Assembly (NCBI GenBank): GCA_021413865.1 | Contig: JAIOPN010000002.1 | Span: 1 to 59,174 of the forward strand | Length of the DNA: 59,174 bases | Source: Planctomycetota bacterium | Lineage (GTDB): Bacteria > Planctomycetota > Phycisphaerae > Phycisphaerales > Phycisphaeraceae | Direction: 5' to 3' | Shown here: positions 540-34,454 of the stretch, piece after piece | Numbering within the stretch: position 1 is the first letter of the stretch | Layout: each line of letters opens with the position of its first letter | Notes under the pieces: generated by a model | Told to the model about the DNA's origin: nothing | Seen by the model: the letters and a program-made list of their open reading frames with translations, nothing else | The model's database searches: none | Position numbers and translations under genes: made by a program

Positions 540-558
540 ATGCCCATTTGATTTTCGG

Positions 559-647
559 CCCACAACCGCCACGGGGCGCTCCGCTGTAATTCACCGGCAG
601 CGGATAAAGAAACCATGAATGCCGGGTCTCCCGGCTGTGGTCCAGAG
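559..647. repeat. 89-bp direct repeat, copy 1
   Basis: This segment matches 1843-1931 in the same orientation and at the same length, with 7 mismatches in 89 positions by eye. Each copy carries the 16-mer REP-like motif close by. The two copies bracket the ankyrin lipoprotein gene. Confidence 0.85.
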
Positions 648-660
648 GGGGTCAAATGGC

Positions 661-676
661 TTCTGACCCCTTTTCT
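661..676. repeat. REP-like short motif, copy 2
   Basis: Exact copy of TTCTGACCCCTTTTCT, preceded by GTCAAATGGC. It lies 12 bp beyond the stop codon of the ankyrin lipoprotein gene and directly after the first 89-bp repeat. Confidence 0.75.
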
Positions 677-688
677 GCGGCCCATTAA

Positions 689-1591: not shown

Positions 1592-1675
1592 TTGTATCCT
1601 CAATATCTATTTGTGGCGCAAAGGTGTTTCCACCCATATTGCCTTCAATACGGAAGCCATTCCATGAAGATCAAT

Positions 1676-1717
1676 GGGAAAGATAAGGGGGGAAAGATAA
1701 GGGGGAAAGATAAGGGG
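1676..1717. repeat. Short tandem array with AAAGATAA cores
   Basis: AAAGATAA occurs at 1679, 1693 and 1706, separated by runs of G, giving three units with a 13-14 bp period. The array ends in GGGGTCAGGAGC, which resembles the reverse complement of the REP-like motif. Confidence 0.8.
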
Positions 1718-1806
1718 TCAGGAGCAATAATTTGTTGGTCTGAGTAGCAGCTTCTGGCTCCTGTTCTTTCTTCCTTGGTTCCTTTTTAGAGGCGTGGTCA
1801 AATGGA

Positions 1807-1822
1807 TTCTGACCCCTTTTCT
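1807..1822. repeat. REP-like short motif, copy 3
   Basis: Exact copy of TTCTGACCCCTTTTCT, with CCCCTTTTCTGCG repeated once more immediately after it (to about 1839). It precedes the second 89-bp repeat. Confidence 0.75.
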
Positions 1823-1842
1823 GCGCCCCCTTTTCTGCGCCG

Positions 1843-1931
1843 CCCACAACCGCCACGAGGCGTTCCGTTGTAGTTCACCGGCAGCGGATACAGAAACCAT
1901 GAATGCCGGGTCTCCCGACGGTGGTCCAGAG
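1843..1931. repeat. 89-bp direct repeat, copy 2
   Basis: Second copy of the repeat at 559-647, same orientation and length, 82 of 89 positions identical by eye. On the minus strand one frame is open in both copies and three of the differences are silent in it, so a coding origin cannot be excluded. Confidence 0.85.
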
Positions 1932-1972
1932 ATGGGATCGTCGTCCTAAGTGTAACAGGCAGACACGGCGAG

Positions 1973-2395
1973 CTACCCCGCGTCGCCCGCCAGCCGCTCC
2001 AGCACCTCCGTGATCAACGGCCCGTTCGCCTCCGGGAACCGGTAGCCCGCCAACTTGCCCGGGCTGACCCAGCGGTGCTCCGCCACCTGGAGGTTGCTCG
2101 GCTCGCCGCCCAGCCGCTCGCAAAAGAAGGGGTGCAGGGTCACGTGCGCGTGGTCGTAGTGATGCTCGATGACCTTCAGCGCCTCACCCACCCGCACGGC
2201 CAAGCCCAGTTCCTCGCGGAACTCCCGCGCGAGGCACTGCTCGGCCGTCTCGCCAGACTCGATCTTCCCGCCGGGCATCTCCCAGTAGCCCCCCAGCACC
2301 GCCGTCTCGGGCCTGCGGGCGATCAGGATACGCCACCCCTCCCGCCCCTTTTCCGCCAGCACCCCGATGGCAACTTTGACCCTCTTTTGCGACAT
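1973..2395 (-). CDS. Nudix hydrolase, MutT-like (d)NTP pyrophosphohydrolase
   Basis: A 140-residue protein with a complete Nudix box at residues 43-65: Gly43, Glu49, Arg57-Glu58, Glu61-Glu62 and Gly64 match GX5EX7REUXEEXGU. The preceding YWEMPGGK segment and overall length fit MutT-type enzymes, which hydrolyse nucleoside triphosphates to monophosphate and pyrophosphate using Mg2+ and remove oxidised nucleotides such as 8-oxo-dGTP. The exact substrate cannot be read from sequence, as many short Nudix proteins have other targets. It stands alone, divergent from the gene at 2594. Expected to be cytoplasmic. Start ATG 2395 gives the usual N-terminal strand (KVAIGVLAEKG) seen in the family. Confidence 0.88.
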   Translation of the reverse strand: MSQKRVKVAIGVLAEKGREGWRILIARRPETAVLGGYWEMPGGKIESGETAEQCLAREFREELGLAVRVGEALKVIEHHYDHAHVTLHPFFCERLGGEPSNLQVAEHRWVSPGKLAGYRFPEANGPLITEVLERLAGDAG

Positions 2396-2496
2396 AAAAA
2401 CGTCCTATCCTACCATCATATCACCGCTTAGCGGCTGCCCCGGAGGGAGGGTTTTCCCCTCAAAAAACATACCCTACAAAAAACCAAACAAAATCC

Positions 2497-2525
2497 TTGA
2501 CACGGCACGATAGTTAGGGTATTGA
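2497..2525 (+). promoter_or_regulatory. Sigma70-like promoter for the gene at 2594
   Basis: TTGACA at 2497-2502, a 17-base spacer, then TATTGA at 2520-2525. The transcript would start about 60 bases before the ATG. Predicted only from consensus match. Confidence 0.65.
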
Positions 2526-2593
2526 TAGGTAGTCGATCCGCACCCGTGAAAGCGACAGAAACCTCGCTCGCACGCCGAAACAAGGACCGAATC

Positions 2594-3238
2594 ATGCTGA
2601 ACCTCCGAGCCATCGACCGCCACTTCCACCTGGGCCGTTTCGACCTCCTCGCCGACGCCGTGGCCGACAACGGCCTGGGCCTCCCGCTGCCCCTGCGGGT
2701 CCGCGTCACCGGCAGCCGGGTCGCCGCCGTCGCCATGGGCCTCAAGCGGGTCATCGAGCTGACCTACGGCCCGACCTCGCTCAGCCGTGAGATGACCAGT
2801 TCCCTCCTGACCCTGCAGCAACCCGACGGCTCCTTCGAGGGCGACCCCCTCGCCACCGCCGCCGTCCTCGCGGCCCTCAATCTCATTAATTCCGATCAAC
2901 CCCGCGCCTGCGACCCGGCCGTCGCCCTCGCCCGGGAACACGCCCTCGCCGCGCTCGCCGCCATGCAGGACGACGACGGCCTGTTCCATACCTCACCCCT
3001 CGACCGCACCGAACAGGACCGTGCCCTCACCGCCGCCTTCGTCCTGCTGATCCTCGGCCGCGACCCCGAGTTCCGCGCCGCCATCCGTTTCGCCGACCTG
3101 CTCAACTGGTTCGACACCAACGCCCAGACCCTCGACGCCGACACCCACCAGCTCCTCGACACCGCCCTCGCCGGCCTCACCGCCGGCCCGGGAACACCCC
3201 CGCGCCGCAACCACAACCTCGCCGCCATCGCCGCCTGA
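2594..3238 (+). CDS. Small protein with prenyltransferase/squalene-cyclase-like repeats
   Basis: A 214-residue protein of unknown function. Two segments, LLTLQQPDGSF (71-81) and ALAAMQDDDGLF (120-131), follow the QxxDGxF pattern of prenyltransferase/squalene-oxidase repeats that build alpha-alpha toroids, and a helix such as DPLATAAVLAALN follows the first. It is far shorter than a real terpene cyclase (over 600 residues) and lacks the DxDD catalytic motif, so a binding or scaffolding role is more likely than cyclisation. ATG 2594 is preferred over an in-frame TTG at 2522 because AAGGA lies 7 bases before it. It converges with the DUF5107 gene after a 33-bp gap. The repeat assignment is inference. 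Confidence 0.7.
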   Translation: MLNLRAIDRHFHLGRFDLLADAVADNGLGLPLPLRVRVTGSRVAAVAMGLKRVIELTYGPTSLSREMTSSLLTLQQPDGSFEGDPLATAAVLAALNLINSDQPRACDPAVALAREHALAALAAMQDDDGLFHTSPLDRTEQDRALTAAFVLLILGRDPEFRAAIRFADLLNWFDTNAQTLDADTHQLLDTALAGLTAGPGTPPRRNHNLAAIAA

Positions 3239-19455: not shown

Positions 19456-21588
19456 TTACGGGGCGTACTTGTTGAGCGTGATGTTGGCGGGGTAGGAGTG
19501 CGTGAAAAAAATCATGCACATGTAGAAGCAGATGCCCAGCATCTCGCCCATGATGAGGCCCAGGAACATGTCGCGGAGTTTCTCGAAGGTGAGCTTCCCG
19601 CCGTAGCGGAGCACGCCCTTGCGGATGAGCCACGCGACGAAAAAGCTGAACCAGAGCTGGTCCATGAGCGGGTTGACCAGCATGATGAAACCGACGGGGT
19701 GCGGGAACCAGAAGACGCTCTGGCGGAGGTACGCGGTCAGCGCGACCCAGAGGCCGCCGCCGACGAGCCAGGCGGTCTTGCTTGCGTTGAACGAGGGCTG
19801 GTAATTGGCCAGGTCGCGGGTGGTGTCCATGATCCAGATCTGGGCGGTGCCGTAGAACCACCAGTGCATGCGGTTGGCGCCCCTGGAGTAGGCCATGAAG
19901 ATCGACACGACGATCGATGCCAGGACGCTCAGCGCCAGGCTCGTCCACATGGTCAGGTGGAAGCGGACGCGGTTGCCGCCCACGTCCTCGCGCAGCTTCG
20001 CGGCGTTGAGCATGTTGGGCGCGAGGAAGCACTTGTGGTCCAGGAACAACACGCTGTAGATGGCCAGAAACGGGGCGACCACGGGGTTGGGGATCAGCCG
20101 CCCCATCCCGAGCATCTGGAACAGATGGAACGGCCCGAAGAAGCACTGGAACCAGTAGATCCCGCTCTCGGCCACAATCCGCATCAGGCCCAGCGTCATC
20201 AGGGTGATGATCGTCACCAGCCCCAGCGCCCACCACGGGTCCAGGCCGCACCAGCTCAGCCACGCTGTCAGCACCGCCACCGAGGAACCCAGCCCGACCA
20301 CCGGCAGGCCGTACCAAAACCGCTCGGCCCACGTCCGGCTGCGCACCAGCCAGCCAAACTCACGCAGGCACCACAACAGCGTCAACGCGGCGAACATGAG
20401 CAATCCGCCCCCCGCCATCGACGACGTCCGGCTCGACCGCCAGAGGAAGTCCCACGGGTCCTCCCATGGGTTGCGCTGAATCCCCAGGAACCCCAGCGCC
20501 ATGAGAAATCCCCTGCTCGCCAGGTAATAGAACCAGACGGAGAAGCTCATCTCCTGGGGCAGCAGGAACGCCAGCCCCATCGCCGTGAACAGGAAAAGGA
20601 AGCTGATCGACGGCGCGATGTAAGAAAAAATCGTCCCGTTCACCATGGAGGCGAACGTCCAACTGCTCATCCCCAGCGTGATGGGGCGCAGCCCGGGGAA
20701 GTTCTCGCGGAACACGCCGCCGTTCCACACCAGCACGAAAAAGCTGACGCTCAGCCCCAACCAGAAACCCGGGTGCGACATCACCGGCGGCAGCCAGCGC
20801 CCCGAGGCGTCCGATTCGGGCAGCAACGCCTCGGGCAGCTTCGCCAGCGGGAAAATCAGCTTCTCACGCTGGGACCAGAACGGCAGCACCACGTACGAAA
20901 GACTGTAGAAGAGCACGTATGCACCGCCCACAAAGATCAACCACCACCCGAGCGGCGCCGCCCACGTCAGCCAGGGCACGTGCGTCAGGACGTACCACTG
21001 GTATTTCAAGTGCGCGGTCCATCGGGCGTCTTCCGCCGGCGCCACGTCCAGGAACCCCTCGCGGTAGGCAGCGATCACCGCGGGGTCTGTGATGTAGAGG
21101 TGGCGGTTGAGCCTGGGGATGACCGCCTCGTCCCAGCCGCGCTGCGGGACGTTCCACTGCGGGTTAAACGGCGCGGCGATCTGCGGCACCATCACCTCGA
21201 CGAGGCCGAACGTCGAGACGCCCGACGTCAGCATCATCGCGGAGAAAACCAGCATCAGTTCCGCGCGGCCCAGCGGCCGGGGCACGCGACGCCCCCGCAG
21301 TTCCAGCCAGTGCAGCAGCGGATTGACCGCGAGCACCAGCGTGAACAGCAGGCCAAACCCCATCGTGGGGATCAGCGACCCCGCCAGTTCGATGCGGTAT
21401 TCGCTCCCCAGGTAGAGCAGCAGGACCGCCTGGAACACCGACATCAGCACCGCACCGACCGCGACCCACTTGCGCAGCCCGAAACGGGCCACCTGCGTTA
21501 GTTCGGCGTGCCCCGCCTCCAACGCCTCGCGACGCCGAAGCTCACCCACATCCACACGTGAATACGACGAGGACTCCCGCGACATCAT
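19456..21588 (-). CDS. DUF6785-family polytopic membrane protein
   Basis: A 710-residue integral membrane protein with about 14 hydrophobic helices spread along its length. The block FRENFPGLRPITLGMSS, the AESGIYWFQCFFGPFHLFQMLGMG segment and a C-terminal NPLMDQLWFSFFVAWLIRKGVLRYGG are like those in DUF6785/DUF6784 proteins of planctomycetes and verrucomicrobia, which are distantly related to oligopeptide-transporter (OPT) proteins. The substrate is unknown; a secondary transporter is a reasonable guess. The first 35 residues are cytosolic and charged. It sits alone between the palindrome at 19419 and the tRNA gene. Confidence 0.8.
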   Translation of the reverse strand: MMSRESSSYSRVDVGELRRREALEAGHAELTQVARFGLRKWVAVGAVLMSVFQAVLLLYLGSEYRIELAGSLIPTMGFGLLFTLVLAVNPLLHWLELRGRRVPRPLGRAELMLVFSAMMLTSGVSTFGLVEVMVPQIAAPFNPQWNVPQRGWDEAVIPRLNRHLYITDPAVIAAYREGFLDVAPAEDARWTAHLKYQWYVLTHVPWLTWAAPLGWWLIFVGGAYVLFYSLSYVVLPFWSQREKLIFPLAKLPEALLPESDASGRWLPPVMSHPGFWLGLSVSFFVLVWNGGVFRENFPGLRPITLGMSSWTFASMVNGTIFSYIAPSISFLFLFTAMGLAFLLPQEMSFSVWFYYLASRGFLMALGFLGIQRNPWEDPWDFLWRSSRTSSMAGGGLLMFAALTLLWCLREFGWLVRSRTWAERFWYGLPVVGLGSSVAVLTAWLSWCGLDPWWALGLVTIITLMTLGLMRIVAESGIYWFQCFFGPFHLFQMLGMGRLIPNPVVAPFLAIYSVLFLDHKCFLAPNMLNAAKLREDVGGNRVRFHLTMWTSLALSVLASIVVSIFMAYSRGANRMHWWFYGTAQIWIMDTTRDLANYQPSFNASKTAWLVGGGLWVALTAYLRQSVFWFPHPVGFIMLVNPLMDQLWFSFFVAWLIRKGVLRYGGKLTFEKLRDMFLGLIMGEMLGICFYMCMIFFTHSYPANITLNKYAP

Positions 21589-21746
21589 CGCTCCTCAACG
21601 GCCCAGGCAGGCCACCGTACCACACCCACCGGCCCTACAACCGGTTTATTCTCACGTCGGCAAGAAAGGCGCGGAAACTGGCGACTATTCCCCGCCCACC
21701 TGGAAATACCGCCTCCTAAGACCGGGACCGTTGCACGCGCCGTGGT

Positions 21747-21775
21747 TTGCCCGGGCATCGCCATCGCGGTACACT
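21747..21775 (+). promoter_or_regulatory. Promoter of the tRNA-Pro gene
   Basis: TTGCCC at 21747-21752, 17-base spacer, TACACT at 21770-21775. The mature tRNA begins 22 bases after the -10 element. Confidence 0.65.
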
Positions 21776-21794
21776 CTTCCGTCCAACACTCATA

Positions 21795-21870
<76 letters not shown>

Positions 21871-21906
21871 TTGAAAACAGCCGCCGTAAAGGCGGCTGTT
21901 TTTCAA
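21871..21906 (+). terminator. Terminator after tRNA-Pro
   Basis: ACAGCCGCC and GGCGGCTGT pair around GTAAA, extended by A/T pairs (TTGAAA / TTTCAA), with a run of five T on the 3' side. Confidence 0.88.
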
Positions 21907-21959
21907 TAGAGCGGGGGAAAAGTCGAGACCACCCATCACATTCCCTCTGGAACCACGCC

Positions 21960-23768
21960 ATGCCCGCCGGCGGACAGCGAACGTCAGAACCCATCTACGG
22001 CTTCGACCTCAAGCGGGATGCGCTCTTCATCCCAATGCGCGACGGCACCCGGCTGATGGCCGACCTCTATCTGCCCCAAGGCCCAGGCCCGTGGCCCGTC
22101 CTCCTCGAACGCACGCCCTACGACAAAGAAAACTCCGTCGAGCTCAAGGTGCAGTCGCCCCCCTTCTTCGCTTCCAGGGGTTACGCCGTCGTCATCCAGG
22201 ACACGCGCGGGCGGTTCAAATCGGAGGGTGACTTCTACCCCTTCATCGACGATGGCTGGGGCGAGAAGAAAGACGGCTACGACACCGTCGAATGGATCGC
22301 GGCCCAGGCGTGGTGCAACGGCCGGGTGGGGACGATGGGCGGGTCGTACTCCGGTCACACGCAGCATTCCCTCGCCCCGACACGGCCGCCGCACCTGAGC
22401 TGCCAGTTCATCCGGGAGCAGGCGGGCGACCCGCGTAAAGGGGTGACGTACCGCGGCGGCGCGTTCGAATTGAGCCTGATGCTGGGATGGGCCGCCGTGG
22501 TGAATAATCAGCACCTGGGCAAGCGTGTGCCCGAGGAGCAGGCCGTGCGGGCGCGTGGCGTCATCGCCAAGGCGCTCACCGAACTGGAGAAGTGGTTCAA
22601 ATGGCTCCCGCTCAAGTCGATGCCGCTCTTCCGCGAGCCGGGCCTGGGGGACTGGTATTACGACTACCTCGACCACCCCACCGACGGCCCGTACTGGGAG
22701 AGCTGGAACGTCGAGCATCACTACTCCGAGTTCGCCGCCCCCGTGTATCACATGGCCGCGTGGTACGACCTCTACACCCAGCCGATGATCGACAACTACA
22801 TGGGCGTCGTGAGCAGGGCCAAATCCGAGCACGTCCGGAAAAACCAGAAGCTCATCATCGGCCCGTGGGTCCACGGCACGCTGCCCGTAAGCCAGTCGAA
22901 AGTCGGCGAGTTCGACTTCGGCCCCGAGGCGGCGCTCGACCACAACCAGATGCGGCTCCCGTGGTTTGACCATTGGCTTAAGGACATCGACACCGGCGTG
23001 ATGGAAGAGCCGGCCGTCCGCTTCTTCACCATGGGTGTCAACCGCTGGCAGACCGCGGAGAGTTGGCCCCCCGCCGGCATCGAGCCCGTGGACCTCTACT
23101 TCCATGGGGGCACGAGCGGTTCCGCCAAATCACTCAACGACGGCCGCCTGCGTCTTGATGCGCCGAAACAGAACGACGGCGCGGACCGCTACGAGTACGA
23201 CCCCGCGCACCCCGTCGAGACGCACGGCGGCGCCATCGTGGATTACAGCGGCAAGCTCTGGGGACCGCGCGATCAACGACCGGTGGAGGCCCGCTGCCTC
23301 ACCTACACGAGCGCCCCGCTCGAACACGACCTCGATGTGACGGGACAGGTCTCGGCCACGCTCTTCGCTATGTCCTCCGCCCCCGACACCGACTGGGTCG
23401 TCAGGCTCACCGACGTCTCGCCGGACGGCGTGTCGCGCTCGGTCCTCGACGGCATCCTCCGGGCGCGCTTCCGCGACTCGCAGACATACCCCACGCTCCT
23501 GACGCCCAACCAGGTGTACCCTTTCGTGGTCGATCTCTGGTCCACCAGCAACGTCTTCCTGGCGGGCCACCGCATCCGCGTGACCGTCACCTCGAGCAAC
23601 TTCCCGCGCTGGGACCGCAACCTGAACACCGGCGGCCCCTTCGGCACCGAGGCCGTCGGGCAGATCGCATTCAACACGGTTTTTCGAGATCAGTCCCGCC
23701 CCTCGCACATCACGCTGCCGACCCGCGGCGGCAAGCCACGGTTGACCGAAACCCGACCATCGCGATAG
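21960..23768 (+). CDS. CocE/NonD family hydrolase (S15-like)
   Basis: A 602-residue alpha/beta hydrolase of the cocaine esterase / X-Pro dipeptidyl-peptidase (S15) superfamily. The nucleophile is Ser129 in GGSYSGHTQ. DTRGRFKSEGDFYPF (81-95) is the oxyanion-side signature and IIGPWVHGTLP holds the likely catalytic His. The last 200 residues form the jelly-roll PepX_C domain (FAMSSAPDTDWVVRLTDV ... GHRIRVTVTSSNFPRWDRNL). These enzymes hydrolyse esters or amides; the natural substrate is unknown. No signal peptide is visible. The frame is open upstream into the tRNA, so ATG 21960 is the first sensible start. Confidence 0.88.
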   Translation: MPAGGQRTSEPIYGFDLKRDALFIPMRDGTRLMADLYLPQGPGPWPVLLERTPYDKENSVELKVQSPPFFASRGYAVVIQDTRGRFKSEGDFYPFIDDGWGEKKDGYDTVEWIAAQAWCNGRVGTMGGSYSGHTQHSLAPTRPPHLSCQFIREQAGDPRKGVTYRGGAFELSLMLGWAAVVNNQHLGKRVPEEQAVRARGVIAKALTELEKWFKWLPLKSMPLFREPGLGDWYYDYLDHPTDGPYWESWNVEHHYSEFAAPVYHMAAWYDLYTQPMIDNYMGVVSRAKSEHVRKNQKLIIGPWVHGTLPVSQSKVGEFDFGPEAALDHNQMRLPWFDHWLKDIDTGVMEEPAVRFFTMGVNRWQTAESWPPAGIEPVDLYFHGGTSGSAKSLNDGRLRLDAPKQNDGADRYEYDPAHPVETHGGAIVDYSGKLWGPRDQRPVEARCLTYTSAPLEHDLDVTGQVSATLFAMSSAPDTDWVVRLTDVSPDGVSRSVLDGILRARFRDSQTYPTLLTPNQVYPFVVDLWSTSNVFLAGHRIRVTVTSSNFPRWDRNLNTGGPFGTEAVGQIAFNTVFRDQSRPSHITLPTRGGKPRLTETRPSR

Positions 23769-23787: not shown

Positions 23788-23918
23788 GGTAGTGGGTCGA
23801 TTTGAAATATCAGGGTGCCTGGGGCAGAGTCTTCGATGCCCCGGCTCTTCGTGAGCCGCTCGCCGGGGCTGCGGAAGACCTTAGCCCCAGCCACCCATTT
23901 CAAAGCGCCCCACTACCC
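23788..23918. mobile_element. MITE-like inverted-repeat element
   Basis: About 130 bp that fold into one long imperfect hairpin. Outer arms are GGTAGTGGG and its complement; further in, TTTGAAAT, CTGGGGC and CCCCGGC pair with their complements. The heptamer AAGCCTC occurs at 23781-23787 and again at 23919-23925, immediately outside or within one base of the arms, as a target-site duplication would. There is no coding capacity. It sits between the CocE-like gene and the PEP-CTERM gene. Confidence 0.72.
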
Positions 23919-23981
23919 AAGCCTCCACTGAGCCGGGCGCGGCTTGTTCTTTGCGTCCATCTTTGGTTATCCTGTGCCCCC

Positions 23982-24635
23982 ATGCCCGGACGGTGGAGAA
24001 TTACGCACAGTGGCCTGTTGCGCGTCGTGATGACGGCGGCGCTGTTGCTCTTGGCAACGCCGGGCGCGCTCCGCGCGGCGGTGATCGGCTTCGATGGCAT
24101 CGACGCCACAGGCGGGCCGGTCGTGATCACAGACCTCTACCGACCGCAGGGGGCCGTTTTCGACTACCTGGCCGTGCAGAACATCGCGGCGCAGACGTTT
24201 TACACCACATCCCCGCGCATCGGTCTGGCGTCGCAGCCCAACGTCGCGGTCCTCAATGACGAGGCGCCACTTCATCTGATTACGACCCTGACATTCGTGT
24301 TGCCTAACACCGCCATCGACGGGGTGGTGCACGGGGCCGTCGGGGCCTACCTCTTCGACGGCAACGTGGGCACGCTCCTGGTGCGGATGACCGCGTACAA
24401 CCTGTACGGCCAGCAATTGGACCTGCAGGAGGTGCAGACCCCCGCCGCGGGATTTGCATATGTCCAAGTGACCGGGCACGCAATCCACACCGTCACGCTC
24501 GAAGCCGACACCGATGGGTCCACCTTTGACCAGTTGACCTTCGGCCAGGTGATCCCCGAGCCAACGAGCGCCGCAACGCTATTGCTCTGCGGGCCTCTGC
24601 TGCTCCGTCGCCAACTCAGGCGGCGTCGGAGCTGA
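23982..24635 (+). CDS. PEP-CTERM sorting domain protein
   Basis: A 217-residue secreted protein of unknown function. It begins with a signal sequence (LLRVVMTAALLLLATPGALRA) and ends with a PEP-CTERM tripartite tail: VIPEP, a hydrophobic stretch (TSAATLLLCGPLLL) and an Arg-rich end. Such proteins are recognised by exosortase and processed at the envelope. The body looks beta-rich, with alternating hydrophobic residues, and has no recognised enzymatic motif. ATG 23982 is preferred because the upstream frame runs through the MITE-like element. Its last 20 bases overlap the 3' end of the convergent giant gene. Confidence 0.85.
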   Translation: MPGRWRITHSGLLRVVMTAALLLLATPGALRAAVIGFDGIDATGGPVVITDLYRPQGAVFDYLAVQNIAAQTFYTTSPRIGLASQPNVAVLNDEAPLHLITTLTFVLPNTAIDGVVHGAVGAYLFDGNVGTLLVRMTAYNLYGQQLDLQEVQTPAAGFAYVQVTGHAIHTVTLEADTDGSTFDQLTFGQVIPEPTSAATLLLCGPLLLRRQLRRRRS

Positions 24636-27600
24636 CCCACGACAGCTTGATGGGCTGGTTCACGCTGTTGAGCCACCGCACCACCGCGCCGCCGGTGGGC
24701 TCTTCGCCCGCGCTGCTGACGATGCTGGCGTTGCTGATCTTCGTGGCCTGAAGGATGCGGCTCAGGGCGGAGGAGGACTCGGCCGTGTAGATGGAGACCG
24801 GCGCCGGCGCACCGCCGCCGGTCAGGAGAACGCGCTGCGCGGCGTAGGCGTCGATGTTCGTGATGTCCAGGTCGCCGACGATCATGCCGTTGTACGTCGG
24901 GTCGAGGCTGACGGCGGCGGAGTTGTGGACCTTGAACTTGACCTCGTGGTCGAGCTTCTTGTTGCGGACACCCGAGACGGTGACCGTCTTCGCCGTGCGC
25001 CAGTTGCGGGCCGTGAAGACGAGGCGGGAGACGCTGGTCTTGCCCGTGGTCGGGTCGGTGGAATCAACGTTGATGACGACCGTGTCGGTCGGCTGCGAGG
25101 CCAGGCCGATGGAGTACTTGGTCTTACCGCCCTTGTTGCTGGTGACCAAGGGGGAGGTCGTCGTCACGACGATACCGGCCACGTCGTTGTCGAGGTTGAC
25201 CATGTTGATCGGGGCGATGAGCATCCCGTTGTACGCTTTGTCATTGCTCTTGACGGCCTGGAAAACGATCCTGTAGCTGGTGTCGCCCGAGGCCACGGCG
25301 TTGTCGCGGCCGGTCACGGTGACGGTCTGATCGATGTTCCAGTTGTACTTGGTGAAGGTGACGCCCGTCACATTGGGGCGGCCGGCGTTGCGGTTGTCGG
25401 AGTTGAAGCGGATATAGACGTTGCCGGTCGGTGCCGCGGCCAGGCGGAGCGTGAAGGTTGCCGTGCCGCCGGCCTCCGTGGTGGTGTGCGACACGGGCGT
25501 GACGACGACGGCCGCGGCGGCCTGCTCGGGGTTGCCGCCCGACTGCGGGAGCGTCGTGTCGATGTTGGTCAGGGTGACGTCGCTGATCGCCAAGCCGTTG
25601 TAGTTGGCGTCGGCGCTGACGGTGTTTGCAAACTGCACGTAGTAACCCGTGTTGCCGTCCACCAGGTTGTCGCCGACGCCGGTGGCCGTGACCGTCTGCG
25701 GGATGTTCCAGTTCAGGGCGGTGAACACCAGGTGCGACTTATCAACGACGCCTTCGAAGGTGTTGGAGGAGGCCAGGTCGATGGTCACATCCGCCAGCGG
25801 CTGTGAGAGCAGCGAGACGGAGAACGTGGTGGAGCTCCCCGCCTCGGTCGTCACCAGGCCCGTGGTCGGCGTGACGCGGACGCCCGTGGGGTCGTTGTCC
25901 GCGTTGACGAGGGTGACGTCGTCGGCGTCGAGTTGCTGGTAGCGGGTGTCGCTGCTGACCGCGGGAGCGAGAATGACGTGATACGTCTGGTCGCCGTCGG
26001 CGATGCCCTCATCGGCGCCCTGCGCACGGACGGTCTGGGCCACGTTCCAGTTCTGCGGCGTGAAGGTCAGCGAGGAAACGTCCGTCGTGCCTTCGTTGGC
26101 GTTGTCGCTGTAAACACTCACCGTCACATTCGCCGTCGGCTTGGTGTCGAGCACGACGTTGAACATGGCGACGTCGCCCGACTCGGACGTGGTCAGACCG
26201 TCCGTCGGCGTGACGGTGATGCCCGCGACGTCGAGGTTACGGTTGGTGAGCGTCACGTCGTCCGGGTTCAGGCCGGCGTAGAAGGAATCGCTGCTCACGG
26301 CGGGGGCAAGCACTACCGCGTAAGCCGTGTCGTCATCGTCAACATTATCCGCCCGGCCTGTGACCGTCACCGTCTTGGCGGTGTTCCAGTTCTGCGGCGT
26401 GAAGGTCAGCGCGGAGACGCTCGCCGTGCCCTCGGCCGTATTCGAGGAGACCACGCCGATCGTCACGTTGCCCGTGGGCTGCGAGTTGAGCTTCACGCTG
26501 AAGGTCGCCGTGCCGCCCGCCTCGGTGGTGGTCAGGCCGCTGACCGGGAGCACGGTGAAACCGGCGGCGTCGTTGTCCTGGTTGACCACCGACACGTCGG
26601 CGGGGTCCAGGCCGTCGTAGGCCGAATCGCTGCTCGACGCGTTGCCCAGGACGATCGTGTTGTTCTGCGAACCGTCGGCCACTGTGTCGTCAACGCCCGT
26701 GACGGTCACCGTCTGGGCGACGCTCCAGTTCTGCGGCGTGAAGGTCAGCGAGGAGACGCTGGTCGTGCCCTCGGCCGTATTGGACGCGGTGATCGGTATC
26801 GTCACGTTGCCGGTGGGTTGAGAATTGAGCCTGACCGTGAAAACGGCGGAAGCGCCGGCCTCGGTGGTCAGCAGTCCGGTGGTCGGGCTCACGGTGAACC
26901 CGGCAGAGTCGTCATCCTGATTGGTCAGCGCGACGTCGGCCGCATCCAGGCCGTTGTACGCCGGATCGGAGCTGGACGCCGAACCCAGATTGATCGTGTA
27001 CCCCCTGCTACCGTCGGCGATGGCGTCATCCGCGCCCGTGACGGTTACCGCCTGAGCCACGTCCCAGTTCTGCGGCGTGAAGGTCAGCGAAGAGACGTTC
27101 GTCGTGCCCTCGGCCGTGTTAGAAGAAGCAACGCCGATCGTCACATTGCCCGTGGGCTGCGAGTTGAGCCTGACCGTGAAAGCCGCGGACGCGCCGGCCT
27201 CGGTGGTCACGAGGCTGCTGGTCGGCGTCACCGTGATGCCCGCGGAATCGTCGTCCTGATTGGTCAGCGAGACATCGGCGGCATCGAACCCGCTGTACGT
27301 AGGATCGGAACTCACCGCGGCGCCCACGACAATCTCATAGCCCTTGTTCCCGTCGGCGATGCTGTCATCAGCACCCGTCACGGTCACCGTCTGGGCGGTG
27401 TTCCATGTCTGCGGCGAGAAGACCAGCGTCGAAACATTGGGCGTCCCCTCTGCGGCGTTCGAGGAGGCCATCGCGATATATACCGTGCTGACGGGCTGTG
27501 AGTTCAGCCTGACCGTGAAGGAAGCCGCGCCGCCCGCCTCGGTGGTGGCCAGACCGCTGGTCGGCGTGACCGTGACGCCGGCTGCATCGTTGTCCTGGTT

Positions 27601-30600
27601 GGTCACGTTCACGTCGGCAACGTTCAGGCCGTTGTAGATCGAATCGCTGCTCGCCGCGGGGCCCAGTTCGATGGTGTAGCTCTTCGCCCCATCGGCGATG
27701 CTGTCATTCACGCCCGTAATGGTCACGGTCTGGGCGGTGTTCCAGTTCTGCGGTGTGAAGGTCAACGAGGAGACGTTCGTCGTGCCCTCGTTGGTATTTG
27801 AGGATGCGACGCCGATCGTTACGTTGCCCGTCGGCTGCGAGTTGAGCTTCACGCTGAAGGTCGCCGTGCCGCCCGCCTCGGTGGTCACGAGGTTGCTGGT
27901 CGGCGTCACCGTGATGCCCGCGGCGTCGTTGTCCTGGTTGGTCACCGACACGTCGGCGGGGTTAAGGCCGTTGTACGCCGGATCACTGCTCGTCGCCGCG
28001 CCCAGAACGATCGTGTAGTTCTGTGAACCGTCGGAGAGGTTATCGTCCGCGCCCGTGACAGTCACGGTCTGAGCGGTGTTCCAATTCTGCGGCGTGAAGG
28101 TCAACGAGGAAACATTCGTCGTGCCCTCGTTGGTATTTGAGGACACGATGCCGATCGTCACGTTGCCCGTGGGCTGCGAGTTGAGCTTCACGCTGAAGGT
28201 CGCCGTGCCGCCCGCCTCAGTGGTCACGAGGTTGCTGGTCGGGACGACGGTGATGCCGGCCGAATCGTTGTCCTGATTGGTCACTGACACGTCGGCCGGG
28301 TTCAGGCCGTTGTAGGCCGGATCGCTGCTTGATGCCGCGCCCAGAACGATCGAGTAGCTCTGCGCGCCGTCGGCGATGCTGTCGTCCGCACCCGTAACGG
28401 TCACGGTCTGCGCCGTGTTCCAGTTCTGCGGCGTGAAGGTCAGTGAGGAGACGTTCGTCGTGCCCTCGTTGGTATTTGAGGACGCGACGCCGATCGTCAC
28501 ATTGCCCGTGGGCTGTGAGTTGAGCTTCACGCTGAAAGCGGCCGCGCCGCCGGTCTCGCTGGTCTCGAGGTTGCTGGTCGGGACCACGGTGAAACCGGCG
28601 GCGTCGTTGTCCTGGTTGGTGACGCTCACGTCGGCGGGGTTCAGACCGCTGAAGGCGGGATCGGAACTCACCGCGGCGCCGAGCACAATCGAGTAAGCCT
28701 TGTCCCCATCGGCCACGCTGTCATCCACGCCCGTGACCGTCACGGTCTTGGCGGTGTTCCAGTTCTGCGGCGTGAAGGTGAGGGAGGAGATACTCGCCGT
28801 GCCTTCCGCAGTGTTCGAGGAAAGGACGCCGATGATCACATTACCCGTCGGGGCGGCGTTGAGACGGATGGTGAAGACCGCCGTGCCGCCGGCCTCGGTG
28901 GTGGTCAGGCCGCTGGTAGGTGTCACGGTGAAACCGGCGGCGTCATTGTCCTGGTTGGTGACGCTCACGTCGGCTGGGTTCAGGCCGTTGTAGGCCGAAT
29001 CGCTGCTCGTCGCGGCGGCCAAGGCGATGGTGTAGTTCTGCGCGCCGTCCACGATGTTGTCGTTGACGCCGGTGACGGTCACCGTCTGAGCGGTGTTCCA
29101 GTTCTGCGGCGTGAAGGTCAGCGAAGAAACATCCGTCGTGCCCTCGGAGAGGTCCGAGGAAGCGACGCCGATGGTGACATTGGCGGTAGGCTGCGAGTTG
29201 AGCCTGACAGTAAAGGAAGCGGTGCCGCCCGATTCGGTGGTGACCAGACCGCTGCTCGGAACCACGGTGAAGCCGGCGGTGTCGTCGTCCTGGTTGGTCA
29301 CCGACACGTCGGCGGGGTTCAGCCCGTTGTACGCCGAATCGCTGCTCGTCGCCGGGCTCAGAACGATCGTGTAGGCCTTGTTACCGTCGACAGCGGCGTC
29401 ATCGATACCCGTGACCGTCACCGTCTGGGCCGTGTTCCAGTTCTGCGGCGTGAAGGTCAGCGAGGAGACGCTCGTCGTGCCTTCGGCCGTGTTGGAAGAA
29501 GCCACCGCGACCGCCACGTTGCCCGTCGGCTGTGAGTTCAGCTTGACCGTGAACGCGGCGGCCGCGCCGGCCTCGGTGGTTGTCAGGCCGCTGACGGGCG
29601 TCACCGTGAAGCCGCCGGTGTCGTTGTCGGTGTTGGTGACACTCACGTCGGCGGAGTTCAGGCCGTTGTAGGCCGAGTCGCTGCTCGTCGCCGGGCTCAG
29701 AACGATCGTATAGGCCTTGTTGCCGTCGGCCGTGACGTCGTCCACGCCCGTGATGGTCACGGTCTGGGCCGTGCTCCAGTTTTGCGGGGTGAAGGTCAGC
29801 GAGGAAACGTTCGTCGTGCCTTCGGCCGTGTTGGAAGAGGCCACATCAACCGTCACATTGCCCGTTGGCTGTGAATTGAGCTTGACCGTGAAGGAAGCCG
29901 TCGCTCCGGCCTCGCTGGTTGTCAGGCCGCTGACGGGCGTCACCGTGAAACCGGCAGCGTCGTTGTCGGTGTTGGTGACACTCACGTCGGCGGGGTTCAG
30001 GCCGTTGTAGGCCAAGTCGCTGCTCGTCGCCGGGCTGAGGAGAATCGTGTAGGCCTTGCTCCCGTCGGCAACGGCGTCGTCCACGCCCGTGACGGTCACC
30101 GTCTGGGCTGTGTTCCAGTTCTGTGGCGTGAAGGTCAGAGAAGAAACATTCGTCGTGCCTTCGGCCGCGTTGGACGAGGCGACCGCGACCGTGACGTTGC
30201 TGGTCGGCTGTGAATTGAGTTTGACCGTGAAGACCGCGGTCGCACCGGCCTCGCTGGTGGTCAGGCCACTGACGGGCGTCACGGTGAAACCGGCGGCATC
30301 GTTGTCCTGGTTGGTGACACTCACGTCGGCGGGGTTCAGGCCGTTGTAGCCCGAGTCACCGCTCGTCGCCGCGCTCAGCACGATCGTATAGGCCTTGTCG
30401 CCGTCGGCCGTGATGTCGTCCATACCCGTCACGGTCACGCTCTGGGGAGTGTTCCAGTTCTGCGGGGTGAAGGTCAACGAGGAAACGCTCGTCGTCCCTT
30501 CGGCGGTGTTGGACGAGGCCACCGCGACCGTGACGTTACTGGTCGGCTGCGAATTGAGCTTGACCGTGAAGGCAGCGGTCGCGCCGGCCTCGGTGGTGAC

Positions 30601-33600
30601 CAGCCCGCTGGTGGGCGTCACCGTGAAGCCCGCGGCGTCGTTGTCCTGATTGGTCACCGACACGTCGGCGGCATCGAGGCCGTTGTACACCGAGTCGGAG
30701 CTGACCGCCGCTCCCAGGATGATCGAGTACGCCTTGCTGCCGTCGGCGATGCTGTCATCCACGCCGGTGACCGTCACCGTCTGGGCCGTGTTCCAGTTCT
30801 GCGGCGTGAAGGTCAGCGAGGAGACATTCGTCGTCCCCTCGGCGATGTTCGTCGAGGCCATCCCGATGACCACATTGCTGATGGGCTGCGAATTCAACCT
30901 GACCGTGAAGCTCGCCGTGCCGCCCGCCTCGGTAGTGGTCAACCCGCTGGTCGGGGTCACGGTGACGCCGGGGGTGTCGTTGTCGGTATTGGTGACCGCG
31001 ACATCGGCGGGGTTCAGGCCGTTGTAACCTGAATCGCTGCTCGTCGCCGCGCCAAGGACGATCGTGTAGGCCTTGCTGCCATCGACCACGGAGTCGTCGG
31101 CGCCGGTCACGGTCACGGTCTGGGCCGTGTTCCAATTCTGCGGGGTGAAGGTCAGTGAGGAGACGTTCGTTGTGCCCTCGGCCGTGCTCGAGGACGCGAC
31201 CGGGATCGTCACGTTCGCCGTGGGCTGGGAGGTGAGCTTGACGGTGAACGAAGCGGCACCGCCCGCCTCGGTGGTGACAAGCCCGCTGGTCGGGGTCACC
31301 GTGAAGCCGGCGGTGTCGTTGTCGGTGTTGGTGACGCTGACATCGGCGGGGTTCAGGCCGTTGTAAACCGTGTCACTGCTCGTGGCCGCGTTCAGCGTGA
31401 CCGCGTAGGCCTTGCTCCCGTCGGCGATGCTGTCGTCGATGCCCGTGACGATCACCGTCTGCGCCGTGTTCCAGTTCGCCGCGGTGAAGGTCAGGGAGGA
31501 GACGCTCGTCGTGCCTTCGGCCGCGTTGGACGATGCAATGGCGATCGTCACATTCGCGGTGGGCTGCGAGGTGAGCTTGACGGTGAAAGACGCCGTGCCG
31601 CCCGCCTCGGTGGTGGTCAGCCCACTGGTCGGCGTTACGGTGAAACCGGCGCTGTCGTTGTCGGTGTTGGTCACGCTCACGTCGGCGGGGTTCAGGCCGT
31701 TGTAAACCGTGTCGCTGCTCGACGCCGGGTTCAGGGCGATCGTGTAGGCCTTGCTGCCGTCCGCGATGCTGTCATCGACGCCGGTGACGATGACCGTCTG
31801 GGCCGTGTTCCAGTTCGCCGCGGTGAAGGTCAGCGACGAGACGTTCGTCGTGCCCTCGGCCGTGTTGGAGGAGGCGATCGCGATCGTCACGTTGGCGGTG
31901 GGCTGGGAGGTGAGCTTGACGGTGAAGGAGGCCGTGCCGCCCGCCTCGGTGGTGGTCAGCCCGCTGACGGGGGTGACGGTGAAACCGGCGGTGTCGTTGT
32001 CGGTATTGGTGACCGCGACGTCGGCGGGGTTCAGGCCGTTGTAGGCCGAGTCGCTGCTCGTCGCGGCGCCCAGGACGATGGAGTAGGCCTTGTTGCCGTC
32101 GACGACCGAGTCATCAACACCCGTGACGGTCACGGTCTGCGCGGTGTTCCAGTTCGCCGCGGTGAAGGTCAGCGAAGAAACACTCACCGTGCCCTCGGCC
32201 GTGTTGGAGGAGGAGACCGGAATGGTCACATTGCCCGTGGGCTGCGAATTCAGCCTGACCGTGAAGGAAGCCGTCGCGCCCGCCTCGGTGGTGGTCAGGC
32301 CGCTGACCGGCGTCACGGTGAAACCCGCGGTGGCGCCGCCGACGGTGAAGGTCGAACTGATGGTGTTGGAGGCGATGCCGGTCGAGGAGTCGATGGTGCG
32401 GAAGTCCACCGTGTTAAGCCCGGCAACGCCGGTGACGGCGGCGGAAACGGAAGACGAGTAGGCGCCGTAGTAGTTGGCGTTGACCCAGTCGCCGCCGTTG
32501 AGGCGGTACTGGATGTAATCAACGGTGTTGGTGGTGACGGCCAGGCGCGGGCCGTAGGTGTTCTGGTTGGGCAGCGTGCCGACGGCGCTGGTGCCGGAGA
32601 AGGTATAGACCCCGGTGGAGCTGTTGTAGGAACCCGAACCGGTGAGCGTGAGGGGCACGTCCAGCACGTCGAAGACGCCGTCGGAGTCGCTGTCACGCCA
32701 GCCGAGCATCTGCATGGTGCTGGGGGCGGAGGTGTGGTTGGGGTAGGCGACGTCCTGCAGGCCCGCCTCGGCCATGATCGAGGCCTGGCGACTGCCGGGG
32801 TTGGGATTGCCGTCGTAGGCGTTGAGGTTCTGCGTGCCGTAGTAGCCACTGGTCATCGTGTAGCTGTTGCCACCCGAGTATTCGTCCAGCGCGTAGAAAA
32901 TGTGGCCGGTCTCATGGGCGAGGACCTGGCCCATGCGGTTGATGCCCCACGCGCCGTTGTCGTAGGTCAGCGTGGCGTACGGGCCGCCGAAGTAGGTGTA
33001 TGCGAAGTAGTTGTCGGTGAACTTGCCGTCGGTGTCGTTGAGCGAGTTGGCGATGAAAACCGTGTACGCCCAGTCCGTGTGGTGCGCCTTGCGCTGCGCG
33101 TCGTTGTACTTCTGCATGTCCGTGATCGACGACGACGCAGAGTTGGCCCCGACCGACGTGAGGAAGTCGTCCACCCAGAGCGTGTTCTGGCTGTAGGTGT
33201 GGTTGATCGGCTCGACCTTCGTGGAGACGGGGTTGTCCGTGTAGGTGAAGTCCACGAAGAAATTGAGGTCGGACTTGGAGTTGGGGTTCTGCTGGTGGAA
33301 GGTCGCCTCCCACCAGTTCATGGCCTCGATCACCTCGGTCTTCACGCTGGCGATCTGCGCGGCCGTCCAGTTGGCCTCGGTCTTGGCGTCCGTCTGGCCG
33401 TTGGAGTTGAGCAGGACGATATTCACCCACACGTCACCCGCCATGAACTCGGTGTTGGCGCGGTAGTCGGCGTTGAGCGGCGTCTGGCCTGACGGTGTCT
33501 TGTTGCCCAAAACGACGGTGGATGTATCGATGCCCGTGGTCGTGCCGCCCGCCACCGTCGCGCCGCCGCCGGCGGGGAGAGCCTGGAGCGCCGCCCCAAA

Positions 33601-33978
33601 CGCCGCTTCATCGCCGGGAGCGACCTGGCCCATGCAAAGCGGGCAGGCGCAGGCCGTGGGGTGGATGAAGGTCTGGTTGCCGAAGTTGTAAACCCGCGCC
33701 TGCGTGTCCTGCGCCGGCACGATGGGCTCGACGCCGTGGTCGTCGTCGCCTTGGACGCCGCTGTCGTGGACCAGGGCCGTCACGGTCTGGCTGCTGTTGT
33801 GGAGATTCGAGGGGAAGGCGCTGCTGAGGAGCTGGCGGATTTCGAGCGATTCCAAGCCGGCCCACTTGGCCAGCAGGTTCTTGCCCGCGGGTCCCGAGAG
33901 GCGGTCGAGCCCGGAGCCGAAGCTCTGCTTATAGGTGCGCTGGCGCGCGCGTGGCGAAGATCGTGGACTGCGTCGCAT
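24616..33978 (-). CDS. Giant secreted protein: M64-like metalloprotease domain followed by 22 Calx-beta-like repeats
   Basis: A 3,120-residue protein. Residues 41-53 (GLESLEIRQLLSS) resemble the N-terminal LEPR-XLL motif of planctomycete surface proteins, preceded by a basic leader. TACACPLCMG (108-117) has three clustered Cys. About 165-440 looks like an M64-type zinc peptidase: HETGH at 355-359 followed by FYALDEY, as in HExGHxxxxLxDEY, then DSDSDGVFDVLD, a possible Ca2+ loop. From 551 to about 3046 lie 22 tandem repeats of about 113 residues (GFTVTPTSGLTTTEAG ... DVSVTNQDND), beta-sandwiches like Calx-beta. The C-terminal 75 residues carry no known anchor. Start ATG 33978 has AGGAGA 5 bases upstream. 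Adhesion or surface proteolysis is likely but unproven. Confidence 0.85.
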   Translation of the reverse strand: MRRSPRSSPRARQRTYKQSFGSGLDRLSGPAGKNLLAKWAGLESLEIRQLLSSAFPSNLHNSSQTVTALVHDSGVQGDDDHGVEPIVPAQDTQARVYNFGNQTFIHPTACACPLCMGQVAPGDEAAFGAALQALPAGGGATVAGGTTTGIDTSTVVLGNKTPSGQTPLNADYRANTEFMAGDVWVNIVLLNSNGQTDAKTEANWTAAQIASVKTEVIEAMNWWEATFHQQNPNSKSDLNFFVDFTYTDNPVSTKVEPINHTYSQNTLWVDDFLTSVGANSASSSITDMQKYNDAQRKAHHTDWAYTVFIANSLNDTDGKFTDNYFAYTYFGGPYATLTYDNGAWGINRMGQVLAHETGHIFYALDEYSGGNSYTMTSGYYGTQNLNAYDGNPNPGSRQASIMAEAGLQDVAYPNHTSAPSTMQMLGWRDSDSDGVFDVLDVPLTLTGSGSYNSSTGVYTFSGTSAVGTLPNQNTYGPRLAVTTNTVDYIQYRLNGGDWVNANYYGAYSSSVSAAVTGVAGLNTVDFRTIDSSTGIASNTISSTFTVGGATAGFTVTPVSGLTTTEAGATASFTVRLNSQPTGNVTIPVSSSNTAEGTVSVSSLTFTAANWNTAQTVTVTGVDDSVVDGNKAYSIVLGAATSSDSAYNGLNPADVAVTNTDNDTAGFTVTPVSGLTTTEAGGTASFTVKLTSQPTANVTIAIASSNTAEGTTNVSSLTFTAANWNTAQTVIVTGVDDSIADGSKAYTIALNPASSSDTVYNGLNPADVSVTNTDNDSAGFTVTPTSGLTTTEAGGTASFTVKLTSQPTANVTIAIASSNAAEGTTSVSSLTFTAANWNTAQTVIVTGIDDSIADGSKAYAVTLNAATSSDTVYNGLNPADVSVTNTDNDTAGFTVTPTSGLVTTEAGGAASFTVKLTSQPTANVTIPVASSSTAEGTTNVSSLTFTPQNWNTAQTVTVTGADDSVVDGSKAYTIVLGAATSSDSGYNGLNPADVAVTNTDNDTPGVTVTPTSGLTTTEAGGTASFTVRLNSQPISNVVIGMASTNIAEGTTNVSSLTFTPQNWNTAQTVTVTGVDDSIADGSKAYSIILGAAVSSDSVYNGLDAADVSVTNQDNDAAGFTVTPTSGLVTTEAGATAAFTVKLNSQPTSNVTVAVASSNTAEGTTSVSSLTFTPQNWNTPQSVTVTGMDDITADGDKAYTIVLSAATSGDSGYNGLNPADVSVTNQDNDAAGFTVTPVSGLTTSEAGATAVFTVKLNSQPTSNVTVAVASSNAAEGTTNVSSLTFTPQNWNTAQTVTVTGVDDAVADGSKAYTILLSPATSSDLAYNGLNPADVSVTNTDNDAAGFTVTPVSGLTTSEAGATASFTVKLNSQPTGNVTVDVASSNTAEGTTNVSSLTFTPQNWSTAQTVTITGVDDVTADGNKAYTIVLSPATSSDSAYNGLNSADVSVTNTDNDTGGFTVTPVSGLTTTEAGAAAAFTVKLNSQPTGNVAVAVASSNTAEGTTSVSSLTFTPQNWNTAQTVTVTGIDDAAVDGNKAYTIVLSPATSSDSAYNGLNPADVSVTNQDDDTAGFTVVPSSGLVTTESGGTASFTVRLNSQPTANVTIGVASSDLSEGTTDVSSLTFTPQNWNTAQTVTVTGVNDNIVDGAQNYTIALAAATSSDSAYNGLNPADVSVTNQDNDAAGFTVTPTSGLTTTEAGGTAVFTIRLNAAPTGNVIIGVLSSNTAEGTASISSLTFTPQNWNTAKTVTVTGVDDSVADGDKAYSIVLGAAVSSDPAFSGLNPADVSVTNQDNDAAGFTVVPTSNLETSETGGAAAFSVKLNSQPTGNVTIGVASSNTNEGTTNVSSLTFTPQNWNTAQTVTVTGADDSIADGAQSYSIVLGAASSSDPAYNGLNPADVSVTNQDNDSAGITVVPTSNLVTTEAGGTATFSVKLNSQPTGNVTIGIVSSNTNEGTTNVSSLTFTPQNWNTAQTVTVTGADDNLSDGSQNYTIVLGAATSSDPAYNGLNPADVSVTNQDNDAAGITVTPTSNLVTTEAGGTATFSVKLNSQPTGNVTIGVASSNTNEGTTNVSSLTFTPQNWNTAQTVTITGVNDSIADGAKSYTIELGPAASSDSIYNGLNVADVNVTNQDNDAAGVTVTPTSGLATTEAGGAASFTVRLNSQPVSTVYIAMASSNAAEGTPNVSTLVFSPQTWNTAQTVTVTGADDSIADGNKGYEIVVGAAVSSDPTYSGFDAADVSLTNQDDDSAGITVTPTSSLVTTEAGASAAFTVRLNSQPTGNVTIGVASSNTAEGTTNVSSLTFTPQNWDVAQAVTVTGADDAIADGSRGYTINLGSASSSDPAYNGLDAADVALTNQDDDSAGFTVSPTTGLLTTEAGASAVFTVRLNSQPTGNVTIPITASNTAEGTTSVSSLTFTPQNWSVAQTVTVTGVDDTVADGSQNNTIVLGNASSSDSAYDGLDPADVSVVNQDNDAAGFTVLPVSGLTTTEAGGTATFSVKLNSQPTGNVTIGVVSSNTAEGTASVSALTFTPQNWNTAKTVTVTGRADNVDDDDTAYAVVLAPAVSSDSFYAGLNPDDVTLTNRNLDVAGITVTPTDGLTTSESGDVAMFNVVLDTKPTANVTVSVYSDNANEGTTDVSSLTFTPQNWNVAQTVRAQGADEGIADGDQTYHVILAPAVSSDTRYQQLDADDVTLVNADNDPTGVRVTPTTGLVTTEAGSSTTFSVSLLSQPLADVTIDLASSNTFEGVVDKSHLVFTALNWNIPQTVTATGVGDNLVDGNTGYYVQFANTVSADANYNGLAISDVTLTNIDTTLPQSGGNPEQAAAAVVVTPVSHTTTEAGGTATFTLRLAAAPTGNVYIRFNSDNRNAGRPNVTGVTFTKYNWNIDQTVTVTGRDNAVASGDTSYRIVFQAVKSNDKAYNGMLIAPINMVNLDNDVAGIVVTTTSPLVTSNKGGKTKYSIGLASQPTDTVVINVDSTDPTTGKTSVSRLVFTARNWRTAKTVTVSGVRNKKLDHEVKFKVHNSAAVSLDPTYNGMIVGDLDITNIDAYAAQRVLLTGGGAPAPVSIYTAESSSALSRILQATKISNASIVSSAGEEPTGGAVVRWLNSVNQPIKLSWVSSDAA
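24841..32328 (-). repeat. Tandem coding repeat, 22 units of about 339 bp
   Basis: Each unit encodes about 113 residues with the conserved landmarks TTTEAG, NVTI, SSLTF, NWNTAQTVTVTG and DVSVTN. The spacing is exactly 339 bp over most of the array. Units 1-3 have AANWNTA and most of the rest PQNWNTA; the last three (gene 3' end, 24841 to about 25880) are much more diverged and are joined by a short linker. Confidence 0.9.
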
Positions 33979-34454
33979 GCCGTCTCCTGCTTTGTTGATC
34001 CGCCTCGCGTGCCGGGATGGATTCCCGAACGCCCCTGCTCTGGTGGCCCGCCCTCTTCGGAGCTCGCCGCACCTTGTCCGGATCAACCAAACGATCCGCC
34101 ACACGCACGGTCTAGTGAATCCGCACAATCCACGTAATCGCCTGCCAGCCCAGCCGCTATAGCCGGACCGCGCAGGCCGATAACCGTTGGATTGGTCCAA
34201 CTGCATGCAAACGCCTACCCCCCTGACCGGGTATGCGTTTCATCCCTGAATTGACAGCGGAGCCCTTCTCCCTAAGAGCCCTCCTCGGCAGCACCGATAA
34301 CTCATATCGGCGGTCTGTTATCACAACACCATTTGGCATCCGTGTCAATCCATTCTCGACGTAAAACTCTGGTAAATAACAACGTGAACCACGCCCTGAA
34401 GGCGTAGTCCTCGCTGAAGTCTGACTCTCTTGATCGCGCTCCGGCGGCCCCGGA
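33979..34454. other. Long leader/intergenic region of the giant gene
   Basis: No gene was found in these 476 bases. A promoter candidate on the minus strand is at 34320-34348. Just downstream of it lies an inverted repeat, CCGATA (34294-34299) / TATCGG (34305-34310), and an overlapping pair GATAAC (34296-34301) / GTTATC (34317-34322). If that promoter is used, the giant gene has a leader of more than 300 bases. Confidence 0.55.
34320..34348 (-). promoter_or_regulatory. Sigma70-like promoter candidate for the giant gene
   Basis: On the minus strand TTGACA (34343-34348), 17-base spacer, TGTGAT (34320-34325). It is the best consensus match upstream of 33978 but lies about 340 bases away. Confidence 0.5.

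Follow-up and report, generated by a model that had tools for sequence, protein, structure and literature searches.

A predicted metzincin-type peptidase head on a long array of Calx-beta-like repeats in a planctomycete bacterium

Metzincins are characterized by the zinc-binding motif HExxHxxG/NxxH/D, in which the final Asp is rare (snapalysins and thuringilysins); in igalysins (M64), an additional residue before the Gly (HExxHxxxGxxD) and the Asp ligand define the class (PMC12237041). Earlier accounts also describe a 'planctosome' with dockerin-bound planctomycete zinc endopeptidases, called M12B Reprolysin4-like (PMC6461901), and the adhesin BapP of Pseudoalteromonas tunicata, which acts in calcium-dependent biofilm formation and combines a propeller head with 12 beta-sandwich repeats (PMC12153261). 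Here we describe a giant gene in a window of 59,174 nucleotides (the whole stretch of DNA analysed) from a Planctomycetota genome (contig JAIOPN010000002.1). With a probability of roughly 0.7, we read its product as a zinc endopeptidase that is secreted and belongs to an undescribed metzincin-type family, with the enzyme placed N-terminally on a long arm. With BapP and LapA-type adhesins this protein shares tandem Calx-beta-like modules; however, no peptidase head is described for these adhesins in the portion of the source at hand (PMC12153261). It also resembles flagellinolysin, a zinc peptidase that depends on calcium and is borne on a surface fibre; there, in contrast, the display is by the flagellar filament (PMC7643111). 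A literature search covering titles and the starts of abstracts found, among the papers listed, no description of this family or architecture.

The gene (Table 1) lies in a reverse-strand frame (24616–34206) that is open end to end with zero stops; AGGAG (33988–33984) is found five bases 5′ of the ATG at 33978, and an in-frame upstream ATG at 34206 would yield 3,196 amino acids. A sequence-only reading of this DNA had proposed a very long chain joining an M64-like peptidase to 22 beta repeats; the length is borne out by 3,120 uninterrupted residues. Relatives of the head were retrieved from a collection of species genomes with a ten-head alignment as query (a single-protein query had found no relative there), which yielded 451 stretches, of which 228 code for relatives. 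From these the best 80 were retained, and the window protein together with 51 of these loci forms an alignment of 52 rows. HExxHx5D is present in all 80 relatives kept, and H355, E356, H359 and D365 are invariant across the 52 rows, with Y367 in 51. The Tyr two residues past the motif Asp is found in 79 of the 80 relatives (L049 has His), and only two aligned heads (L040 and L074) lack the Met-turn Met. The retrieval pattern itself contained HExxH; the relatives' own motif nonetheless lies outside that pattern in 56 of the 80 loci, all with HExxHx5D, and is therefore independent of the scan in these loci, and the D365 position lies beyond the pattern for all 80. Both the conservation of HExxH (80/80) and a predicted third zinc ligand, D365 (52/52 rows, 80/80 loci), which the sequence-only reading had left to be checked, are thus in place; the motif starts at residue 355, as it had proposed, and ends at 367 rather than 366. 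In the Asp-rich loop further downstream, D429, D437 and D440 are present in 52/52 rows and D431 in 47/52, a possible calcium site.

An AlphaFold2 model of residues 160–545 built from the 52 sequences (predicted local distance difference test [pLDDT] 96.4, predicted template-modelling score [pTM] 0.93) comprises a metzincin-type domain followed by a beta-sandwich. When the 1,000 best PDB chains from Foldseek were re-aligned with VIA-align (997 aligned), rows 1–44 were metzincins, as judged from the entry titles, over model residues ~21–280, with Z up to 11.5 (acutolysin-C, 176 residues aligned, 3.8 Å; followed among others by ADAMTS-4, 11.4, OgpA, 10.1, mirolysin, 9.5, and InhA2, 8.6). Local alignment with snapalysin (1c7k/4hx3) also places H, H and D in register. 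Structure prediction, proposed earlier as a check of the M64 assignment, supports a metzincin-type peptidase fold; the 50 VIA-align rows listed do not include the M64 entries 3P1V and 4DF9, which speaks neither for nor against M64. At model residues 277–386, VIA-align found beta-sandwich proteins, among them the sensor domain of RsgI4 and a sulfite dehydrogenase. The best NCBIfam match of the heads is an OmpL47-type model (2.4e-5), which presumably falls on this beta-sandwich; OmpL47-type models also match 9 of 50 full-length relatives (location in the protein not given).

The repeat array makes up 80% of the chain and is strongly acidic (224 acidic versus 62 basic residues). A profile built from copies found by a text pattern and rerun on the protein yielded 22 copies, spaced by 113 residues in 19 of 21 steps and by 124 and 112 in the other two; with a beta-sandwich predicted for them, the 22 beta repeats of about 113 residues proposed from the sequence are supported. 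Pairwise identities range from 32 to 91% in protein (mean 65%) and from 52 to 88% in DNA (mean 70%), and the repeats are therefore not identical copies arising from an assembly fault; further identical repeats could have been collapsed by the assembly. On the whole protein, PF03160 reaches 142.7 bits (cut-off 27, E 6.6e-42) over 16 stretches, and it reports nothing for an out-of-phase stretch or for the last repeat plus tail. Two repeats modelled together reached pLDDT 94.0 and pTM 0.68, although among the five models two were poor (69.9 and 64.0). On structural re-alignment, the best matches of this model were NCX1/CALX calcium-binding domains (NCX1 CBD12, Z 12.1; NCX1 CBD1, Z 11.6 with 108 residues aligned, 2.9 Å). 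As modelled, the repeats are Calx-beta-like in fold, and they may bind calcium at conserved acidic positions; the last three repeats diverge, and repeat 22 lacks several of the acidic positions and keeps others. Two other Calx-beta proteins above the cut-off are encoded in the same genome (G000:C13:98282-98917 and G000:C45:6772-7002, in frames of 784 and 1,630 codons).

Table 1. Features of the giant gene and its product in the window.
Feature	Residues	Window coordinates	Strand	Basis
Whole gene	3,120 amino acids	24616..33978	-	Open frame from ATG at 33978
LEPR-XLL-like element LESLEIRQLLSS, after basic N-terminus	42-53	33820..33855	-	By eye
H106-PTA-CACPLC (C110, C112, C115)	106-115	33634..33663	-	Chain's only cysteines
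Metzincin-type catalytic domain (predicted)	~180-439	32662..33441	-	AlphaFold2 model and metzincin matches, model residues ~21-280
Predicted zinc motif HETGHIFYALDEY	355-367	32878..32916	-	HExxHx5D conservation in relatives
Met-turn SIM (S400-I-M402)	400-402	32773..32781	-	Met in 50/52 rows
Asp-rich loop GWRDSDSDGVFDVLD	426-440	32659..32703	-	Conserved Asp; possible calcium site
Beta-sandwich domain	~441-545	32344..32658	-	Strands in model
22 Calx-beta-like repeats	551-3045	24844..32328	-	PF03160, repeat profile, NCX1 CBD12 fold match
C-terminal tail	3046-3120	24619..24843	-	No known anchor

Several observations weigh against a secreted metzincin-type enzyme on a Calx-beta-like arm. The only Pfam match of the window head is Peptidase_M7 (PF02031), at 19.6 bits versus a cut-off of 25, and a PDB sequence search at E ≤ 10 listed five entries, two of them snapalysin (E 0.24 and 0.26); over all PDB comparisons, the snapalysin matches stay weak (E 0.22–0.26). 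Foldseek's own list is headed by M1 aminopeptidases (template-modelling score 0.13–0.16), and no metzincin is among the matches listed in its first 50 rows. Position 8 of the zinc motif, Gly or Asn in the metzincin consensus, is Tyr in the window; at this place, 50 of the 80 relatives carry Trp and 16 Tyr, followed by Gly in 9, Leu in 3, and Phe and Arg in one each. HExxH with its Glu, Asp at position 11, the Met-turn and the predicted fold all agree with metzincins; because of the departure at position 8, we use "metzincin-type" rather than claim strict membership of clan MA(M). No signal-peptide-like hydrophobic stretch was seen in the chain. As for the arm, single repeats stay under the PF03160 cut-off of 27 (21.2–24.4 bits at the six places listed; 23.8 for repeat 1), pilus chaperones and MSP proteins nearly tie with NCX1 in the structural re-alignment (Z 10.6–10.7), and in Foldseek a ciliary protein scores level with NCX1.

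If the reading of a secreted enzyme on an arm is correct, H355, H359 and D365 would hold one zinc ion and E356 would activate the water, with Y367 possibly acting as a tyrosine switch. Calcium on the conserved acidic residues would stiffen the repeats, so that the enzyme would act far from wherever the chain is held; if each such module adds 4–5 nm of length, the reach would be of the order of 100 nm. The substrate would be an extracellular protein or glycoprotein.

The head could instead be a distant member of M7 (snapalysin) or M6 (InhA/thuringilysin). The compact HExxHxxxxxD is shared with snapalysin and with three of four M6 proteins (in the fourth, L162, the motif is one residue longer), as are the Asp ligand, the Tyr at +2 and the Met-turn. 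M7 is also the sole Pfam family reported for the window head; across all heads, 30 Pfam families matched some head at E ≤ 1, M7 being the best among the 25 listed (E 3.3e-4). On NCBIfam the window head matches snapalysin NF033628 only (18.4 bits, cut-off 300), and some relatives show weak matches to M6 or snapalysin models (best TIGR03296, 34.0 of 110.8 bits, in L009). In a profile comparison with six M64 and four M6 proteins (two further M6 loci gave no motif), only the motif region aligned, M6 reaching 64.6% over 31 columns. However, no curated cut-off was reached where bits are given, the likeness lies mostly at the motif, the head is far longer than snapalysin (132–134 residues), and the Gly at position 8 is mostly absent, its place being taken in the window by an aromatic residue; moreover, the head is followed here by a beta-sandwich and, in the family, by varied tethers. 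PF05547 (M6) has 0 matches in the genome itself. We consider even distant membership of M7 or M6 unlikely, and conclude that the head represents a metzincin-type peptidase family not described before, whose active-site pattern comes nearest to M7/M6.

On a different balance between the two parts, the protein would serve chiefly as an adhesin or matrix component comparable to BapP; its function would reside in the repeats, and the role of the head would be limited to trimming or releasing the protein itself. The large share of the chain taken up by repeats is in keeping with this, as is the occurrence of Calx-beta repeats in BapP and LapA (PMC12153261). It is the head with its full active site, however, that is kept across phyla. 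A survey of relatives for the same architecture, suggested by the sequence-only reading, found repeats of the window type in one locus (L038), which has five copies, and none in the other 79 of 80 (in 11 of the 80 loci, the frame continues beyond the stretch retrieved). The L038 repeats were found with the profile of the window repeats, and PF03160 does not report this locus; in the tree, it is also the row placed closest to the window protein (support for the pair 93/82, below the tool's starred level). A mainly adhesive role thus seems to us improbable. The family is scattered: at E ≤ 1e-10, a search of 294 genomes sampled from the phylum gave matches in 7, the window's own among them. That genome has one copy of the head, and relatives occur in several phyla; one of them, L068, belongs to the isolate Blastopirellula marina DSM 3645. 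A search of 151 genomes gave matches in 12, nine (own included) at the head and three at the repeat end only. A profile scan of 397 genomes left 43 at E ≤ 0.001, only 7 of which (own included) match at least 300 model positions; among the other 36, 33 match positions 277–370 only (the beta-sandwich) and 3 match positions 135–199.

The relatives carry varied tethers. Among the 50 scanned whole, Dockerin_1 was found in 26 and SdrD_B in 23. Within the same family or order, PEP-like ends can be made out by eye in six relatives; for TIGR02595 (16 bits), two of these pass, two fall just below and two give no match. Dockerins, and weak Reprolysin_4 matches in 13 of 52 heads (E ≤ 1, best 0.022), recall the peptidase arm of the 'planctosome' (PMC6461901), from which the window protein differs in having no dockerin. 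One open frame of 6,206 codons (L037:2537-21154), which runs off the fetched stretch, combines a subtilase, beta-propellers and Ig-like domains with the same head; the subtilase precedes the head and propellers lie on both sides. Another family member is in three pieces with an internal stop (L016, G055:C17), which would point to gene decay or to an error in the sequence.

The cysteine cluster CACPLC (residues 110–115) contains all three cysteines of the 3,120-residue chain, which agrees with what had been noticed from the sequence. Because all cysteines lie in this cluster, it cannot be linked by a disulfide to the rest of the protein; the cluster may bind a metal, form a local bond or bond to another molecule. 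It is missing from the nearest relative, L038, and residues 53–164 found no credible relative in the other 150 of 151 genomes: 41 of the 151 gave something at E ≤ 0.1, including the gene itself, the rest being short and weak, and the best non-self match (E 8.5e-4) has three internal stops. Cysteine-switch latency via CACPLC was considered and rejected, since the region has no credible relatives and C.C..C is N-terminal in 0 of 80 relatives. A CxC[PQ]xC cluster close to the C-terminus, within the last 17–72 residues and with few or no other cysteines, was observed in 15 of the 80 relatives (L052, L055, L058, L060, L062, L063, L064, L070, L076, L077, L083 and L086-L089), 10 of them titled Pirellula, and recalls the CACPLC cluster, which in the window protein lies at the opposite end. 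Of the 1,017 frames with at least 250 codons (80 loci plus the window), only two others (≤8 cysteines) show CxC[PQ]xC near an end, L082 and L099, and the latter frame is doubtful. A broader and quite doubtful proposal, to be taken as a whole, is that one head has been moved, in planctomycetes and other phyla, among tethers (dockerin, where it would form a protein-degrading 'planctosome', PEP-CTERM, type IX secretion system or S-layer homology tails and, in the window lineage, a 22-module arm stiffened by calcium and extending well beyond the cell), with CxCPxC as a surface thiol or metal hook that would fix or latch the enzyme.

A dead peptidase serving as a binding module would fit the Tyr at position 8 and the two heads without the Met-turn Met; against this, H, E, H and D are all present in 80 of 80 relatives, and we regard the idea as very unlikely. 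The M64 assignment fares worst. In the phylum, PF09471 matches are widespread, with 79 of 199 sampled genomes having one, while the window's own genome (95% complete) gives none at E ≤ 0.001; six M64 proteins from phylum genomes read HEFGHxxAGLxDEY, one residue longer than the window motif. A true igalysin on a long stalk, the initial hypothesis, is suggested by eye (HE.GH...DEY), by the Asp third ligand of igalysins, themselves metzincins (PMC12237041), and by 39% over 64 columns around the motif in hhalign, but it is largely refuted and most improbable, as the genome has no PF09471 match and the additional residue before the Gly is missing from the window and 80 of 80 relatives. What survives of the earlier peptidase claim is thus the predicted metallopeptidase fold and the conserved HExxH, not the family.

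At the N-terminus, the LEPR-XLL-like start proposed earlier stands as a resemblance by eye; residues 1–86 match no NCBIfam model at E ≤ 1, so NF012209 (cut-off 17 bits) is not reached. The nearest relative, L038, passes that model (23.6 bits), which has two matches elsewhere in the window's own genome, and LExR-x-LL-like words occur within the first 200 frame residues in 33 of 80 relatives. At the other end, a search of 101 genomes with the C-terminal tail returned the gene itself and one weak match (E 0.002), and no anchor was found. An open reading frame (ORF) of 277 amino acids at 23802–24635 on the forward strand overlaps the giant gene tail-to-tail by 20 bases at the 3′ ends; its end looks PEP-CTERM-like by eye, and a PEP-CTERM model search gave no match. 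The other neighbours inspected are ordinary (an S15/PepX hydrolase, tRNA-Pro, a Glycos_transf_3 protein and rpoC). The tRNA-Pro (ggg) at 21796–21871 on the forward strand is overlapped by mechanical ORFs 21470–21874 and 21813–23768, and the S15/PepX gene presumably has a later start. Long forward-strand frames opposite the repeat array (25933–27501 and others) are probably a by-product of codon use in the repeats. A tblastn search with 12 neighbouring ORFs against the 80 loci, run without a positive control, gave no match at 1e-5, and a search of plasmid records found none.

These results point to an annotation gap: a conserved peptidase-like family, with 228 related stretches in one genome collection, whose window head lies under every Pfam and NCBIfam cut-off. 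If active, the head could be an enzyme for the extracellular protein degradation proposed in planctomycetes, and would exemplify the display of a single head via different anchors; the version with Calx-beta-like repeats provides a testable case of a long-reach protease.

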